Assembly: GCA_026398535.1 (NCBI GenBank) | Contig: JAPLSQ010000122.1 | Coordinates: forward strand, 1 to 64,000 | Source of the DNA: Candidatus Sumerlaeota bacterium | Lineage (GTDB): Bacteria; Sumerlaeota; Sumerlaeia; Sumerlaeales; Sumerlaeaceae | Length of the DNA stretch: 64,000 bases | Direction: 5' to 3' | In this document: piece after piece, positions 28,192-59,617 of the stretch | Layout: each line of letters begins with the position of its first letter | Position numbering within the stretch: position 1 is the stretch's first letter | Program-made: the position numbers and the translations under genes | Notes under the pieces: generated by a model | Database searches by the model: none | Told to the model about the DNA's origin: nothing | The model's input: only the letters and a program-made list of their open reading frames with translations

Positions 28192-28337
28192 TGCGCTCCC
28201 GCACCGCCAGGGAAAGGGCCAGTGTCTTGCGATTATGGCTCATTTTCGAAAAGCATCACTGAATCCTTTTCATTTTGCATTTGTCGTCTTTCGGCTTTCT
28301 TTTCATTTCGAATTTATAAATGAGAGGAGATTTGAGA

Positions 28338-29399
28338 ATGGGAAAACCATACCGATTCATTATCGTTGGCACAGGGGGAATGGGCAATTTCTGGTGCCGC
28401 ACTTTTATGAGCAGACTTCAGGAGATGGGCAAAGCCCGTGCTGTTGCCGCTGTGGACATCAATCCCGACGCTCTTGTGAACGCGCGGGAAGGATTGGGTT
28501 TGCCGCCGGAGAAATGTTATACGGACATGAAAAAGGCTTTCGACGAGAATAAGGCGGATTTTGCCATCATTGTCACGCCGCCAGCTTTCCATGAAGCCGT
28601 GGTCGATCTTGCTCTCAAGCATGACATGGATATCCTTTCCGGGAAACCGATCACCGACACCATTGAATCCAGTTGCCGTGTCTATAAAAAGGTCAAAGCG
28701 GCCGGAAAGAAAATGGCCGTCACGCTGTCGCACCGGTTTGATCAGGACAAGCAGAGCCTCGAACGCGAAATCAAGAGCGGGAACTATGGCGATCTCAACT
28801 ACTGCGTTTGCCGATTCACGCACAACTGCCGCGCGTTTGGGAGCTGGGGCAAGTTCCGCCATGAAATTCCCGATCCGTTGCTGATTGAGGGAAGCGTCCA
28901 TCATTTCGATATCTTCCGGGCGCTGTCGGGCAGTGACGCCAAGACGGTCTACACCTTGAGCTGGAACCCGCGATGGGGCGAGTTCGCCGGCGACAGCACG
29001 GCATTTGTGACCATCGACATGATGAATGGCGTGAAGTGTCTTTACGAGGGCGCCAAAGCCAACGCTTGCACCTACAATGGTTGGGGCAATGAATACTTCC
29101 GCGCTGAATGTGAGCATGGGACTCTGGAACTTGACCGGCGCTGGTTGCGTGCGTTGCGCGACAATGGATGGAACAGGCCATTTGCCCAAGACCTGCCCCT
29201 GGCTGATCAGCCCGCATGGGCGAACGCATGGATTTCGGAGATGTTTTGTGACTGGCTCGACGGGGGCGCTCCGCCGCCATGCCACCTCGATGACGAAATC
29301 CAATGCGCGGCGCTTCTATTCGCTGCCATCGAGTCAGCCCACACAGGCAAACCCGTCGATGTTCAGGAATTCCTTAAAAAGTATCTTGCCGCTGTCTAA
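28338..29399 (+). CDS. Gfo/Idh/MocA-family NAD(P)-dependent oxidoreductase
   Basis: The N-terminal Rossmann fold begins with YRFIIVGTGGMGNFW and is followed by VAAVDINPDAL. The GKPITDTIE segment has the Lys-Pro pair of the family's EKP active-site loop, here with G in place of E. The start is ATG 28338, with GAGGAG nine bases upstream; the in-frame ATG at 28320 precedes it. Members oxidise or epimerise sugars, inositols and sugar acids; the C-terminal HxxD-like region (EGSVHHFDIFRAL) is where substrate binds. The next gene, a ThuA-domain protein, often accompanies this family in carbohydrate-degrading bacteria. The exact substrate is not predictable. Confidence 0.9.
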   Translation: MGKPYRFIIVGTGGMGNFWCRTFMSRLQEMGKARAVAAVDINPDALVNAREGLGLPPEKCYTDMKKAFDENKADFAIIVTPPAFHEAVVDLALKHDMDILSGKPITDTIESSCRVYKKVKAAGKKMAVTLSHRFDQDKQSLEREIKSGNYGDLNYCVCRFTHNCRAFGSWGKFRHEIPDPLLIEGSVHHFDIFRALSGSDAKTVYTLSWNPRWGEFAGDSTAFVTIDMMNGVKCLYEGAKANACTYNGWGNEYFRAECEHGTLELDRRWLRALRDNGWNRPFAQDLPLADQPAWANAWISEMFCDWLDGGAPPPCHLDDEIQCAALLFAAIESAHTGKPVDVQEFLKKYLAAV

Positions 29400-29434
29400 G
29401 GCACACGAATCCAAACCTTGCGAAAGGGCGAAAT

Positions 29435-30100
29435 ATGTTCAAGACTGACAATCGATTAATCAAGACTGCCATCATCGATGGTGTTCATCCATACGATGTG
29501 CCCGGATTTCGCGATCTCTTCCGCTCAATTGAAGATATTGATCCTTACCATCAGGCCATCGATAATTGGGCGGTGGATTGCGGTGGCGTTCGTGATGAAT
29601 ACGATGTGCTGCTTTTTTACAACTCAAATCCTGAGCCGAATCCTGAGTGCCAGTTCATCAAGCCGAAACTGATCGAAACCCTCGGTGAAATTGGGAAAGC
29701 CGTCAATCAGGGGATCGTTGTACTGCATCACGGCCTCTTGGCATATCCAAACGACCAAAATTGGTCACAGATAGTGGGCATTGCCAACCGCGCATTCGGA
29801 TTTCACATGGATCAGACGTTTAAAGTGGAAATCGCACAACCAGCGCATCCAATCGTGCAGGGCCTCAGCGACTGGATCATGTTCGACGAAACCTATACGA
29901 TGGACAGCGCGGATGAGGCGAGCGAAATTCTTCTGACGACCCAACACGAAAAGAGTATGCGCACGATCGCATGGACACGGCAATTCCGCAGTGCGCGCGT
30001 TTTCTGCTATCAATTAGGCCATGACGCGCGCAGTTGGATTGATCCCAATTTTCGGGAAATACTCACCCAAGGCATCCGTTGGGCTGCGGGCAGATTATAA
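29435..30100 (+). CDS. ThuA-domain protein
   Basis: A 221-residue protein with the class I glutamine-amidotransferase-like fold typical of ThuA (trehalose utilisation) proteins: KTAIIDGVHPYD at the N-terminus, EYDVLLFYNSNP, GIVVLHHGLLAYPN in the position of the nucleophile elbow (His-His, no Cys), HPIVQGLSDWIMFDE, and VFCYQLGHDARSW near the end. No signal peptide is seen, so it is cytoplasmic. It follows the Gfo/Idh gene by 35 bases and is likely in its operon, probably in metabolism of the same sugar. The biochemical activity of ThuA domains is poorly defined. Confidence 0.88.
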   Translation: MFKTDNRLIKTAIIDGVHPYDVPGFRDLFRSIEDIDPYHQAIDNWAVDCGGVRDEYDVLLFYNSNPEPNPECQFIKPKLIETLGEIGKAVNQGIVVLHHGLLAYPNDQNWSQIVGIANRAFGFHMDQTFKVEIAQPAHPIVQGLSDWIMFDETYTMDSADEASEILLTTQHEKSMRTIAWTRQFRSARVFCYQLGHDARSWIDPNFREILTQGIRWAAGRL

Positions 30101-48290: not shown

Positions 48291-50039
48291 ATGAATGTGA
48301 TGGGACATGAAGCGCAACTTGCCGTGCCGCATGACCAGGCTGTTGAACTGTTGAGCGGAGCGGGCGCTCTGTTGAGCGGGCATTTTCTGCTGAGTTCCGG
48401 TCTTCACAGCGCGCAATATTTTCAATGCGCTCCGCTCATGGAAAGGCCGGATATCGCGGAGAGAATCGCGTGCCCGATAGCCGCAATTGTCTTGCGCTGG
48501 CGGCCTGACATCGTGCTGTCACCAGCGCTGGGCGCGATACTTTTCGGCTATGAATTGTCGCGTTCTCTGGGTGTTCGCAATATATTTGCCGAACGTCCTT
48601 CGGGTGGGCGCTTCGAGTTGCGCCGGGGATTTTCGCTCAACGAGGGGGAACGGGTTATTATTGCTGAAAACGTGGTTACGACTGGCGGCAGTGCGGATGA
48701 AGTGGCGCAGATGGCAAGGAATCTGGGCGCGAAGGTCGTCGGTTATGCCATTATCGTGGACAGGTCAGGCGGGCGTTACGCGCCGGCAGACCCTGTCGCG
48801 GCGTATGCCGCACTTGATGCGCAGACTTTCGCGCCGCAAGACTGTCCGCAGTGCAAGGCCGGCACGCCCCTGATAAAACCGGGCAGCCGTATCTTCACGA
48901 ACAAGCAGATCACATCACTTCCAATCACGCAGACAAGGACACCGGAAATGCCGATCACACCAATGACGACAAGGGAACGCTTTAACCGCATCATGCATTG
49001 GCAGAAACCAGACAGGGCGCCCAATATGGATTTTGGCTATTGGGATGAGACCATTGCTGAATGGCACAAGCAGGGTCTGCCTGAAAGTGTCAAAACAGGC
49101 GCTGATGTGGAAAGACATCTTGGCCTCGAAGGGATGGAAACCATCCTTATAACGCCCGTATGGAATGGACTTTATCCATGGTTTCAGCCTGAAACGCTGG
49201 AGGAGCGTGCCGATACCAGGATCGTCCGCGACCATGAGGGCAACATCTGTGAAGTTTCCAAGCATGGCGCGTCCATTCCCCGTTATATAAAGTATGGCTT
49301 GGAAACACGCCAGGACTGGGAGCTTCTCAAGCGTGAGCGGCTGGACTACACACGCGAGGATCGGGTGGGCGATGTGAAGACGGCCGTTGACAACGCCCAC
49401 GCCGCGGGCATGCCCATCGCGTTCGGCTGTGGTTCCCTTTATGGATGGCTCCGCAACTGGATGGGTGTTGAAAATCTGTCGATTGCCATCATTGAGGAGC
49501 CCGCATGGGTTGAGGAAATGATGGAGCATCTGACCCAAATGACGCTTTATCTAATCGGGAAGGCGCTTCCGGGTGTGGAGGTGGATTTCGGATGGTGGTG
49601 GGAGGACATGTGTTACAACAACGGCCCGTTATTATCGCCGGCTATGTTTGAGCGACTGATGACGCCGCGTTACCGAACAATTACCGATGAATTGAAACGT
49701 TATGGCATCGATGTCAATCTGCTCGACTGCGACGGCTCTATCTACAAGCTTGTGCCGGGTTGGCTGAAGAGCGGCATTAATTGCATGTTTCCGATCGAGG
49801 CCGCACATACCGATCCGGTCAAGCTTCGGGAATCATATGGCGAGCAGGTGCTTCTGGTCGGCGGAGTGAACAAGGTGGAACTGGCCCGCGGCAAGGATGC
49901 CATTGACCGCGAGATAGAGCGTCTGCGTCCGCTTGTCGAGCGTGGCGGATATATTCCCACGGTTGATCATCGTGTCCCGCCTGATGTGTCCTATGACAAT
50001 TATATATATTACATCGAGAAGAAGAAGACGGTCCTGTAA
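48291..50039 (+). CDS. Orotate phosphoribosyltransferase fused in frame to a UroD-like domain
   Basis: One 582-codon open frame. Residues 1-205 form a complete PyrE: SGLHSAQYFQCAPLMERPD, the catalytic loop ERPSGGRFELRRGFSL, the PRPP loop VIIAENVVTTGGSADEV (usual ED is EN here), and the typical PyrE ending CPQCKAGTPLIKPGSR. A 15-residue linker follows without a stop. Residues from 220 on are a uroporphyrinogen-decarboxylase-like TIM barrel: TTRERFNRIMHWQKPDRAP, FGCGSLYGWLRNWMG and LLVGGVNKVELARGKDAID. AAGGA lies eight bases before the internal ATG 48948, so the second domain might also be made separately. PyrE makes OMP in pyrimidine synthesis; the role of the UroD-like part, related to corrinoid methyltransferases, is unknown. 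Confidence 0.85.
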   Translation: MNVMGHEAQLAVPHDQAVELLSGAGALLSGHFLLSSGLHSAQYFQCAPLMERPDIAERIACPIAAIVLRWRPDIVLSPALGAILFGYELSRSLGVRNIFAERPSGGRFELRRGFSLNEGERVIIAENVVTTGGSADEVAQMARNLGAKVVGYAIIVDRSGGRYAPADPVAAYAALDAQTFAPQDCPQCKAGTPLIKPGSRIFTNKQITSLPITQTRTPEMPITPMTTRERFNRIMHWQKPDRAPNMDFGYWDETIAEWHKQGLPESVKTGADVERHLGLEGMETILITPVWNGLYPWFQPETLEERADTRIVRDHEGNICEVSKHGASIPRYIKYGLETRQDWELLKRERLDYTREDRVGDVKTAVDNAHAAGMPIAFGCGSLYGWLRNWMGVENLSIAIIEEPAWVEEMMEHLTQMTLYLIGKALPGVEVDFGWWWEDMCYNNGPLLSPAMFERLMTPRYRTITDELKRYGIDVNLLDCDGSIYKLVPGWLKSGINCMFPIEAAHTDPVKLRESYGEQVLLVGGVNKVELARGKDAIDREIERLRPLVERGGYIPTVDHRVPPDVSYDNYIYYIEKKKTVL

Positions 50040-53744: not shown

Positions 53745-53832
53745 TTTTGCGTGCCTGTTATGCCAGTACGTTGCACGCATTTATGAACATGACCGATGGT
53801 GTTTTGTTTGAATGATTTGAGGTAATTTGAGA

Positions 53833-56800
53833 ATGAGTTTTTGCGCGGGTCTTCCAAGCAGGCAGGGACTTTACGCTCCCGATTATGAACACGATTCGTG
53901 CGGTGCGGGTTTTGTCGCCAACATCAAAGGCAAAAAATCGCATGATATTATAATCCAGGCGATAGAGATTCTTGTCAATCTTGCGCACCGGGGCGCCTGC
54001 GGGTGCGATCCGGATACGGGTGATGGCGCGGGAATTCTTCTGCAAATCCCCCATGAGTTTTTTAAGAAGGAGTGCAGGAAGCTTGGAATAGTGCTGCCCC
54101 GACCAGGGGGATATGGCGTCGGTGTTGTTTTTCTTTCCCATGATGAAGAAGCTCAGGCTGCCTGCCGGCTTGTTATTGAAGAAACGATTGTGGAATTTGG
54201 TTTGCGGCTCATCGGCTGGCGCGATGTGCCCGTCCGGCCTGAAGTTATTGGCAAGGTTGCCCGCGAAGCCATGCCCGCCATACGCCAGTTTTTTGTGAAG
54301 AAAGCCGATCAGGCCGGCAACCAGGACTCTTTTGAACGACGCCTGTTCATGATCCGCAAATGCGCCAACAGGCGCATCAAGGACGAAAACGTTCCGGGCC
54401 AGGAGATGTTTTATGTGCCGAGTTTTTCGAGCCGGACAGTCATTTACAAAGGCATGCTCGTCGCCCACCAGATGGCGCCTTTCTATCCTGATCTGGCGGA
54501 CAAACATTTTGTAAGCGCGCTGGCCCTCGTGCATTCGCGTTTTTCGACGAACACCTTTCCTTCCTGGGAGCTTGCCCATCCCTACCGCATGATTGCCCAC
54601 AATGGCGAGATCAACACCCTGCGCGGCAACCGCAACTGGATGTATGCCCGTCAGGCCACGCTGAAAAGTCCTCTTTTCGGTCCCGACATCGGCAAGCTTT
54701 TTCCCCTTGTGACGGAAACGGGCAGCGACTCCGCGACATTTGACAATGCGCTTGAATGCCTTGTCATGGGCGGCCGGAGCCTTCCCCATGCCATGATGAT
54801 GATGATCCCGGAAGCATACACCAAGGATCCCATGATGGATGATGACAAGAAGGCTTTCTATGAATATCATGCCTGCCTCATGGAGCCTTGGGATGGCCCT
54901 GCCGCCATCGCGTTCACCGATGGAGTGCGCATTGGCGCGGTTCTCGACCGCAATGGATTGCGTCCCGGGCGCTACTGGGTCACCCGTGACGACCGGCTGA
55001 TTTACGCCTCAGAAACCGGTGTGCTTGATGTGCCCGTCAAGGATGTCATCTACAAGGGCAAGATGCAACCGGGCCGGATGCTTCTCGCTGATCTGAAACA
55101 CAAGCGCATCATTGGCGATGACGAGTTGAAGAAGGCCATCGCAACCCGCAAGCCTTACCGCGAGTGGGTTGACAAGAACATCATCGATATTGAGGGTCTG
55201 CCTGATCCGCCCCTGGACTTGCTCAAGGAACCGGACCATGACACACTGTTGCAGAGACAGCAGATATTCGGTTATTCAATAGAGGATCTGCGGTTCCTGA
55301 TGGCGCCCATGATCACGCAGGGTGAGGAAGCGGTCGGCTCCATGGGCAATGACACGCCGCTGGCCGTTCTTTCCAACCGCCCCCAGCTTCTCTACAACTA
55401 CTTTAAGCAGCTTTTTGCCCAGGTCACGAATCCGCCCATTGATTCGATGCGTGAGGACATGGTCATGTCCACGCACAATTATGTGGGAAGCTGGGACAAC
55501 ATTCTGGCCGAAACACCCAGGCATGCCCACATCGTGCGTCTGCGCCATACGATTTTGACAAACAGGCAGATCGAACAGCTCCGGCATATCAAGCGGGGGG
55601 TGTATAGAACGATCACGATTCCCATGTTGTTTGATGTGCGTGATGGTGAGAGGGGGCTGGAGAAGGGGATGGTGCAGTTGTGCGCAAAGGCTTCCCGAGC
55701 ATGCCGCGAAGGCTACAGCATCATCATATTGTCCGACCGCGGCGTTGATGAGCACCATGCGCCCATACCGGCGCTGCTTGCCACTTCAGGCGTGCATCAT
55801 CATCTTATACGGGATGGGCTGCGCGGCGCGGCGGGCCTTATTGTCGAGACCGGCGAGGCGCGCGAGGTGCAGCATTTCGCTTTGCTGATCGGTTATGGCG
55901 CCGGCGGCATCAACCCATACCTTGCATTTGAAACCATCTCAGACATGGTGCGCCATAAAATCCTGCCGGTGGAACTTGTGTCCGCCGACGGACTCAGTGT
56001 TGAGCAGGCTTTCAATAATTATGTTAAAGCCGTTGACAAGGCGCTTCTCAAAGTCATCGCCAAGATGGGCATTTCGACAATCCAAAGCTACGAGGGCGCC
56101 CAGATTTTCGAGGCGATCGGACTTAACCGCATGGTGATCGACCGCTACTTCCCCAAAACCGCCTCGCGCATCGAGGGCGTCGGTTTCGATATCATCGCCC
56201 GCGAAACCCTTATGCGGCACAAGAACGCGTATCCTGAGGACCGGCTCGCGCGCATTGAGCATCTTGATTGGGGGGGACAGTACCAGTACCGCCGTGACGG
56301 CGAATATCATTTGATCAATCCCGATTCCATTTTCAAGCTCCAGCACGCCGTGCGCACGGACGACTACAGGACGTTCAAAGAATACAGCTCGATGATCAAC
56401 GATCAGAGCGAGCAGATGTGCACGCTGCGGGGATTGTTCAAGTTTCGAAAGGGCGACTCCATATCCGTCGATGAGGTTGAACCGGTCGAGTCCATCGTCA
56501 GGCGGTTTTCCACAGGCGCGATGAGTTTCGGCTCCATCAGCAAGGAGGCTCACGAGACGCTGGCCATTGCGATGAACCGTCTTGGCGCGCGGAGCAATAC
56601 TGGCGAGGGAGGCGAGGATCCGGAGCGATTTTCAAGGGATCCGAATGGTGACTGGAGGCGGAGTTCCATCAAACAGGTGGCCAGCGGACGGTTTGGCGTG
56701 ACCACCAATTATCTGGTGAATGCCGACGAACTGCAAATCAAGATGGCACAGGGCGCCAAACCCGGCGAAGGAGGGCAGTTGCCCGGCCACAAGGTGGACA

Positions 56801-58416
56801 AGGTTATTGCCCGCGTTCGCCATTCAACTCCTTATGTTCAACTGATCTCGCCCCCCCCGCACCATGATATTTATTCGATAGAAGATCTGGCTCAGCTCAT
56901 CTATGATCTTAAGAACGTCAATCGGCAGGCTCGCATCAGCGTGAAACTTGTCGCCGAGGTTGGCGTGGGAACGATTGCGGCTGGCGTGGCCAAGACGCGC
57001 GCCGATGTTGTGCTTATCAGCGGACATGATGGCGGCACCGGCGCATCACCTCTCACATCGATCAAGCATGCAGGAGTTCCCTGGGAGCTTGGTCTTGCGG
57101 AAACGCAACAGGTTTTGGTGATGAACGACCTTCGCGGGCGCATTATCGTCCAGACGGACGGTCAGCTTAAAACCGGGCGCGACATCGCCGTGGCGGCTCT
57201 GCTCGGCGCCGAGGAATGGGGCTGCGCGACCGCGCCGCTTGTGGCCCTCGGATGCATCATGATGCGCAAGTGCCACCTCAATACATGTCCTGTCGGCATT
57301 GCCACACAGGATCCTGTGTTGCGCGCCAAATTTGCCGGAAGACCGGAGCATGTCATCAACTTCTTCCGTTTTCTCGCGCGGGAATTGCGCGAGATCATGG
57401 CCGAAATGGGATTTCGCACTATTGCCGAGATGATCGGACGAGTTGACATGCTTGACATGGCGCCGGCTCTTGAGCACTGGAAGGCCCGCGGACTGGATTT
57501 CAGCGAAATCTTCCATCAACCGAATGCTGGTCCGGAAGTTGCGCGCAGTCATGTCACAACGCAGGAGCATGGACTTGAGGGCGCGATGGATTTTGAACTT
57601 ATCAAGGTGTGCCAGCCCGCCATCGAACAGGGACAACGCGTGCAGTTTGAAAAATCCATATGCAATGTTCACCGTACGGTGGGAGGGATGCTCAGCGGAG
57701 AACTGGCAAGGCGTTATGGTGAGCATGGTCTGCCCGATGACACGATACGCGGTGTTTTTCAGGGTTCGGCAGGGCAGAGTTTCGGAGCATGGCTTTACAA
57801 GGGTGTGACGTTCACGCTCATTGGCGACGCTAACGATTATGTTGGCAAGGGAGTCAGCGGAGGAAAGCTGATTATCATACCGCCGCCTGATGCCGGTTTT
57901 GTGCCCGAGGAAAACATCATCATCGGCAACACCTGTCTCTATGGAGCAACTGACGGCGAGGTCTATGTGCGCGGTCTGGCGGGCGAGCGCTACGCCGTGC
58001 GCAACAGCGGCGCCAAGACGGTCATCGAGGGCGTGGGCGATCATGGCTGCGAATACATGACCGGCGGTGTGGCTGTCGTGCTTGGCCGCACGGGCCGCAA
58101 CTTCGCGGCGGGCATGAGCGGCGGCATCGCGTTCGTTTATAATGAGGACGGACTTTTTGAGAAAAGGTGCAACAAGGCGATGGTTGACCTTGAGGAGGTT
58201 AATGAGCCCAAGGACATCCAGTTGCTCCTCTGCCTGATAAGCAATCATGCGAAATACACGGGCAGCGCACGCGCCCGAATGATCCTGGATCGGTGGGATG
58301 ACAGTGTGCGGCGCTTTGTGAAGGTCATGCCAAGGGAATACAGGCGCGCCCTTGCCCAGCTCGAAAAAGAAGAGCAGGCCGACTTGGAGGCCAGGCTCAT
58401 GCCGGTCCCGGCGTGA
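53833..58416 (+). CDS. gltB: Glutamate synthase, large subunit
   Basis: Makes two glutamates from glutamine and 2-oxoglutarate. The 1,527-residue protein has an N-terminal propeptide of 22 residues before the nucleophile Cys ([17 protein letters not shown]), which must be cleaved off to expose it. The glutaminase domain contains [12 protein letters not shown] and [12 protein letters not shown]. The FMN domain has [10 protein letters not shown], and the 3Fe-4S cysteines are in [15 protein letters not shown] (near residue 1,140). The C-terminal beta-helix (GxxxG repeats, [20 protein letters not shown]) is also present. Start ATG 53833 has GAGG ten bases upstream. The small subunit gltD is not adjacent. 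Confidence 0.97.
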
Positions 58417-58483: not shown

Positions 58484-59617
58484 ATGCTGACAAACACACA
58501 AAAAGATGAGCTCTGGCATGCATATCATGAGCATCGCCCGACGCGAATACCCGTCATGCTTCGCACCAATCCGCGGATCATCGTTCTTGACGCGCAACTG
58601 AACCATAACGGGTATAAGTTTGAACAGGTTCAGACTGATGCGTGCGCGCATGTCGAAATTTCGCTTCAACACGCGCATTATGTCCGCACTGTGCTGAACC
58701 AGTTCACCGACGGACCGGCCGGTTTGCCGGATTGCTGGGAAGTATATTATTATTGTTACAACATCTATGAGGCTGCGGCGTTTGGCGCTGAGGTGTGTTA
58801 TCCTCCCGATCAGGTTCCCTGTACTGAACCGTTTCTCACAGAAGCCAACAAGCGCGAGATTTTTGACTGTGACATTGAGCATCCCTTTGAAAACCGTTTT
58901 ATTAAACAGTCGCTGGCATTCTGGCGCGAGATGGAGCGGATATGCGCGGACATGCGTTATGAAGGGCGCCCTGTGAGGCTTATGCCGTTCGCGCTGACGG
59001 GCACGGATGGGCCGTTTACGGCGGGATGCAACCTCCGAGGGGCGGATTTCCTGCTGGATTTCATGGAGGACGCCGATTATGCGGCGCGCCTGATGGAGCT
59101 GGTAACACGCGCCGCGACCATCCGACGCCGCACCTTTGAGCGTTATTGGGGAAACCGCATCGCCACGGGCAATTGGCTCGCCGACGATTCATGCGCCATG
59201 ATAAGCGTGCCGATGTACCGTGAGAGAGTCATGCCCTATCATCGCCAATACTACGATGCCGCAGGCGGGGACATTCCGCGATGGATGCACTTGTGCGGAG
59301 ATGCCACGCATCTGTTTCCAGTGATGAAGAATGAGCTTGGCGTATCCAGTTTCGACACCGGATTTCCGGTGAATCACGGAGAATTGCGCCGCAGCCTCGG
59401 GCCGGACGTTGAGATTGCCGGGGGGCCCGAGGCGGGACTTCTGCTCAATGGCACGCCAGACGATGTCTGGAACCGCACCCGTGACATCCTGCTCAGCGGA
59501 GTGAAATCCGGGGGGCGTTTCATTCTTGCCGAGGGCAACAATCTTCCTCCGGCATGTCCGCCCGATAATCTCAAGGCCATGTATGCGTCATGCCTTGAAT
59601 TTGGCTTTTGCGAATGA
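58484..59617 (+). CDS. Uroporphyrinogen-decarboxylase-like protein
   Basis: A 377-residue TIM-barrel protein of the UroD/MtaA superfamily. It has the H-x-C motif (WMHLCGDATHLFPVM), where corrinoid methyltransferases bind zinc, then FDTGFPVNHGEL, GGPEAGLLLNGTPDDV and the family's end GNNLPPACPPDNLKAMY. True haem-pathway UroD has a different N-terminal arginine/aspartate pattern, so this is more likely a methyltransferase-like or unknown member. The start ATG 58484 has no clear Shine-Dalgarno. It follows gltB after 67 bases. It differs from the UroD-like domain of the fusion gene, which lacks H-x-C. Confidence 0.82.
   Translation: MLTNTQKDELWHAYHEHRPTRIPVMLRTNPRIIVLDAQLNHNGYKFEQVQTDACAHVEISLQHAHYVRTVLNQFTDGPAGLPDCWEVYYYCYNIYEAAAFGAEVCYPPDQVPCTEPFLTEANKREIFDCDIEHPFENRFIKQSLAFWREMERICADMRYEGRPVRLMPFALTGTDGPFTAGCNLRGADFLLDFMEDADYAARLMELVTRAATIRRRTFERYWGNRIATGNWLADDSCAMISVPMYRERVMPYHRQYYDAAGGDIPRWMHLCGDATHLFPVMKNELGVSSFDTGFPVNHGELRRSLGPDVEIAGGPEAGLLLNGTPDDVWNRTRDILLSGVKSGGRFILAEGNNLPPACPPDNLKAMYASCLEFGFCE

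Follow-up and report, generated by a model that had tools for sequence, protein, structure and literature searches.

Orotate phosphoribosyltransferase (OPRT, PyrE) is joined to another enzyme in UMP synthase (PyrE–PyrF), where the partner performs the next step of the pathway. Barrels of the UroD superfamily, the scope of which has been outlined elsewhere (PMC10418091), are found in uroporphyrinogen decarboxylase (HemE) and in corrinoid methyltransferases of the MtaA–CmuA type (PF01208, NF004889, TIGR01463); the zinc in MtaA has been described (PMC539065). The stretch of 64,000 nucleotides analyzed here (hereafter, the window) carries a reading frame in which PyrE is fused to a UroD-like barrel. 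It resembles UMP synthase in joining OPRT to another enzyme, but the barrel has no known pathway link. We found no paper reporting a PyrE–UroD fusion, and as far as the searched literature shows, this domain combination is undescribed. The features of the locus are as follows.

48291–48905, plus strand: PyrE (orotate phosphoribosyltransferase) domain, residues 1 to about 205 (TIGR01367, 4paw, identity within the family, pLDDT)
48651–48695, plus strand: PRPP-binding loop region RVIIAENVVTTGGSA, residues 121–135 (compared with seven same-family PyrE)
48891–48962, plus strand: 24-codon linker IFTNKQITSLPITQTRTPEMPITP (alignments, composition, pLDDT)
48936–48950, plus strand: possible internal ribosome-binding site AAGGA and start codon ATG 48948 (duplex energy)
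48963–50036, plus strand: UroD-superfamily barrel of the D-x-D-G subfamily, residues 225–582 (PF01208, homologue alignment, predicted structure)
50037–50039, plus strand: stop codon TAA of the fused frame (translation)

The fused frame and its junction

Translation of the assembled sequence gives a single open frame of 582 codons at 48291–50039 (plus strand); the 582 residues encoded by 48291–50036, read without a stop, comprise PyrE (residues 1 to ~206), a 24-residue linker and the barrel (residues 225–582). The first-pass annotation had proposed just such an in-frame fusion, with PyrE reaching its natural end at KPGSR and running on, and the assembled sequence confirms this: residue 200 is the last of KPGSR, and both domains are complete and score above the cut-offs of their profiles (TIGR01367 and PF01208).

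The junction is present in a single copy in the genome, lies mid-contig and shows no repeats suggesting misassembly. We regard a sequencing or assembly error, by which a true stop or frameshift between two genes would be missing from the consensus, as quite unlikely. Such an error would suit a draft genome of 145 contigs and the separation of the two genes in every relative, and the CAG codon of residue 206 (48906–48908) is one transition away from TAG, close to the point where one same-family PyrE ends (KPGSRKIRTK, then a stop). However, the position of the junction and the correct frame on both sides of it speak against this explanation, and deep assemblies seldom contain single-base errors in the consensus.

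The linker has no homology to sequences on either the PyrE or the barrel side (alignments A3 and A2). Its GC content at first codon positions is 0.33, calculated over only 24 codons, versus 0.65 in PyrE and 0.59 in the barrel, and it is predicted to be disordered (pLDDT 33–42); both properties would be expected if it once was intergenic DNA. In 14 of 34 separate homologues, the start is preceded by at least 24 codons that are open by chance, so that the open linker needs no special explanation and an uninterrupted frame is in itself a weak sign of selection. A promoter scan of the locus yielded no match.

A motif AAGGA (48936–48940) is located 7 nt upstream of ATG 48948, with a duplex energy of −5.1 kcal/mol, lending weak support to internal initiation; 41% of sampled gene starts and 20% of the internal ATGs in the window match this energy. 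Fused DNA could thus yield in effect two proteins, a separate barrel started at ATG 48948 being added to the obligatory long chain. We consider this unlikely, despite the good spacing of the motif and the fact that the resulting product MPITPMTTRERF would match the separate homologues but for five additional residues: one in five internal ATGs has an equally good upstream site, and an internal start leaves the fused product in place, as there is no stop between the domains. The motif behind the earlier suggestion that there is room for both products is thus confirmed in the sequence.

The PyrE domain

The N-terminal half scores 182 bits against TIGR01367 (pyrE_Therm; curated cut-off 150.25), has the OPRT 4paw as its best solved relative and is 60–68% identical to PyrE of genomes from the same taxonomic family; its structure is predicted with confidence (pLDDT about 90). 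It shares with PyrE of the TIGR01367 kind a full-length domain, the CPxC motif, the KPGSR C-terminus and the PRPP loop, and differs in being extended C-terminally and followed by a second domain. In PyrE proteins of this kind, a conserved C-terminal C-x-x-C (CPxC) precedes KPGSR, as seen at 48843–48890 and in the relatives of alignment A3; it is possibly structural or metal-binding.

The PRPP-binding loop is present and reads AENVVTTGG. This EN variant, previously remarked upon as a departure from the ED of most PyrE proteins, does differ from TIGR01367 PyrE and from the outer relatives in alignment A3, which carry ED, yet it is shared by all seven same-family PyrE proteins. Hence EN is a family trait having no connection with the fusion.

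A profile search of the contigs of the genome revealed no OPRT over the cut-off other than the fused one. Since it is the sole candidate for this activity, the fused PyrE very likely functions while joined to the barrel. A second, weaker OPRT match, on contig C59, reads as an adenine phosphoribosyltransferase.

The UroD-like barrel

The C-terminal half scores 41.5 bits against PF01208 (URO-D; cut-off 23.9). Modeled alone with AlphaFold, it reaches a pLDDT of 95, and the folds nearest to the predicted barrel are MtaA of Methanosarcina mazei (4ay7) and uroporphyrinogen decarboxylases; the full-length prediction, with too few barrel rows, is informative for PyrE and the linker only. More specific models fall far below their cut-offs: NF004889 gives 31.7 of 244 bits, MtaA 20.2 of 400, and the HemE model TIGR01464 15.8 versus 302.95. 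Thus, the barrel shares its fold and weak profile matches with the MtaA–CmuA type and its fold with HemE. A search for solved relatives by sequence and for a specific NCBIfam model of its subfamily returned none.

In alignment A2, 26 homologues begin at the equivalent of M225, and none of the residues invariant among them has been lost from the barrel, suggesting that it is probably active too. It lacks the H-x-C zinc motif of the MtaA–CmuA type, as had been pointed out before; the stretch found there is D-C-D-G, and D255, D257 and G258 (barrel numbering) are invariant in the 27 aligned sequences. The absence is therefore a trait of the whole subfamily rather than decay, and is not specific to the fusion. 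As hhalign of A2 versus the UroD-like protein at 58.5 kb produced no convincing alignment, the correspondence of D-x-D to H-x-C was set by eye; compared in this way with the H-x-C-G of MtaA-type proteins, the barrel has two Asp in place of His and Cys. In a profile alignment with human UROD, which is weak (E about 1), the D-x-D-G stretch faces AKDG and the invariant DH faces GH, so that the C-terminal His of D-H-R-V-P-P corresponds to that of G-H-G, a likeness to HemE. The D-x-D-G motif is suggestive of a metal site that has been altered or lost and speaks against standard zinc/thiol methyl transfer in the manner of MtaA.

The subfamily can be recognized by a conserved W-E-D-M, the invariant D-x-D-G and a conserved D-H-R-V-P-P-D-V (48963–50036 and loci L031–L070), and it is widespread, occurring in many bacterial phyla and in archaea. 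Its member closest to the barrel (71% identity, Elusimicrobia; L032:6001–7089) spans two open frames, which suggests a frameshift or a sequence error in that record.

Separate genes in relatives

In all seven of the nearest genomes compared, which belong to the same taxonomic family, pyrE is a separate gene with a stop 1–5 codons past KPGSR. In some relatives, the apparently long open frames in the pyrE region (413 and 550 codons, for example) proved on reading to lie upstream, with the stop of pyrE again a short way past KPGSR. Barrel relatives, up to 71% identical, are likewise encoded separately, their starts coinciding with the equivalent of M225, and come from Elusimicrobiota, Aerophobota, Sumerlaeota, Acidobacteriota, Ignavibacteriota and archaea, among others.

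The search for single-chain PyrE–UroD architectures, recommended in the first-pass annotation, detected no second fusion in 386 whole genomes (three candidates scored per genome), in 39 genomes of the class, in 40 loci from a scan of 84,980 species by short exact peptides, or among plasmids and viral contigs; the sensitivity of this search is limited, with UroD subfamilies other than that of the barrel covered less than exhaustively. A conserved fusion family, which would require this architecture to recur in a second genome or more, is thus not apparent in this sample. Two barrel matches extending into query residues 168–210 were rejected: in L038 and in G358 this part is unrelated upstream sequence (read through in the former), and the 431-codon frame of G358 is also too short to accommodate PyrE. 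Among 69 barrel loci, only that of the window has pyrE beside the barrel gene.

The two genes in relatives are therefore separate and have clear stops, which argues against a conserved functional fusion. They are not adjacent, however, contrary to what had been envisaged as grounds for dismissing the fusion, and so its existence in this one genome is not refuted.

Origin of the fusion

The PyrE half, closest to its own taxonomic family, is vertically inherited, judging from sequence relationships; a conserved pyrE neighborhood or synteny within the family was looked for and not found. The barrel, in contrast, clusters in the tree with homologues from Elusimicrobiota and Aerophobota of up to 71% identity (SH-aLRT 95), and the homologue from a Sumerlaeota genome of the same class (G030) lies outside this group. 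Horizontal gain is therefore likely, and we infer that the barrel was probably acquired in this way.

We think it probable that the frame represents a recent fusion, private to its lineage, of a vertically inherited pyrE and a probably horizontally gained UroD-like gene, with domains that act independently. The loss of a stop codon between two adjacent genes, offered initially as the alternative to a meaningful fusion, is in our judgment probably the right reading. The pyrE gene and a separate UroD-like gene would have come to adjoin in the same reading frame, and the pyrE stop may have been lost via a point mutation, a small deletion or the insertion event itself; deletions are named as one route to gene fusions in bacteria in a preprint (PMC12803068). 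What used to be intergenic DNA would now supply about 24 residues of flexible linker. Because the domains are not separated by a stop, ribosomes that begin at the pyrE start must produce a single chain of about 64 kDa, both domains of which may fold and work independently. Selection would maintain PyrE as the only OPRT, and the barrel would retain the function of its own subfamily.

If the DNA is right, this is a clean natural case in which gene gain beside an essential gene produced a two-domain protein in one step, and the essential enzyme tolerates a tail of about 380 residues.

Gene surroundings and a possible functional link

A functional fusion, in which the barrel modifies or delivers something tied to pyrimidine metabolism or regulates OPRT, seems to us highly improbable. 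Both domains are intact, as would equally be expected of a useful fusion, and this would count against a private accident; UMP synthase elsewhere (e.g., 3qw4) provides a precedent for a PyrE fusion. Corrinoid-activation (RACo) genes are located near a few barrel relatives (three of 40 loci, e.g., L037), making a methyl-transfer role conceivable. However, the fusion is seen nowhere else among the 386 genomes and 69 barrel loci, no corrinoid gene adjoins the barrel, and none of the other URO-D matches of the source genome (roughly 30 in all) is fused to PyrE. Barrel relatives have varied neighbors, the sugar-related ones including GH3, mannitol dehydrogenase, PfkB, ThuA and MocA/aldo-keto reductase; neither a pyrimidine-pathway gene nor any other pyrimidine link was detected in the scanned loci. 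No B12-binding domain was found on the contig of the window (C84), all such matches of the genome being on other contigs.

The idea of a corrinoid or methyl-transfer step coupled to pyrimidine synthesis is consequently unsupported, as no relative pairs the genes, no corrinoid protein adjoins the barrel, unlike in the MtaA–CmuA type, and the zinc motif is missing. We give equally little credence to a bifunctional enzyme combining OPRT with a D-x-D-G barrel of altered metal site that would act on or near pyrimidine intermediates in the genus. Two ordinary genes joined by a private accident are the most likely case, rather than a new linked pathway, and a "Rosetta stone" inference drawn from the co-occurrence of the two domains in this one draft genome would falsely tie pyrimidine synthesis to a UroD-like enzyme.

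The source genome (4.2 Mb) shows a large expansion of the UroD family, with about 30 URO-D matches over the Pfam cut-off, and also possesses two RACo genes and several B12-binding proteins. On another of its contigs (L084, G000:C114:15090–16824), a D-S-D-G paralogue of the barrel directly adjoins a UroD-like gene of the zinc type (H-S-C-G), and an apparent sugar ABC permease is located near this pair. The second UroD-like gene of the window (58484–59617) contains H-L-C-G, and its neighbor at 53827–58416 looks like the large subunit of glutamate synthase. At 28320–30100, genes for a MocA-type oxidoreductase and ThuA lie side by side; ThuA is also found near a barrel relative in L031.
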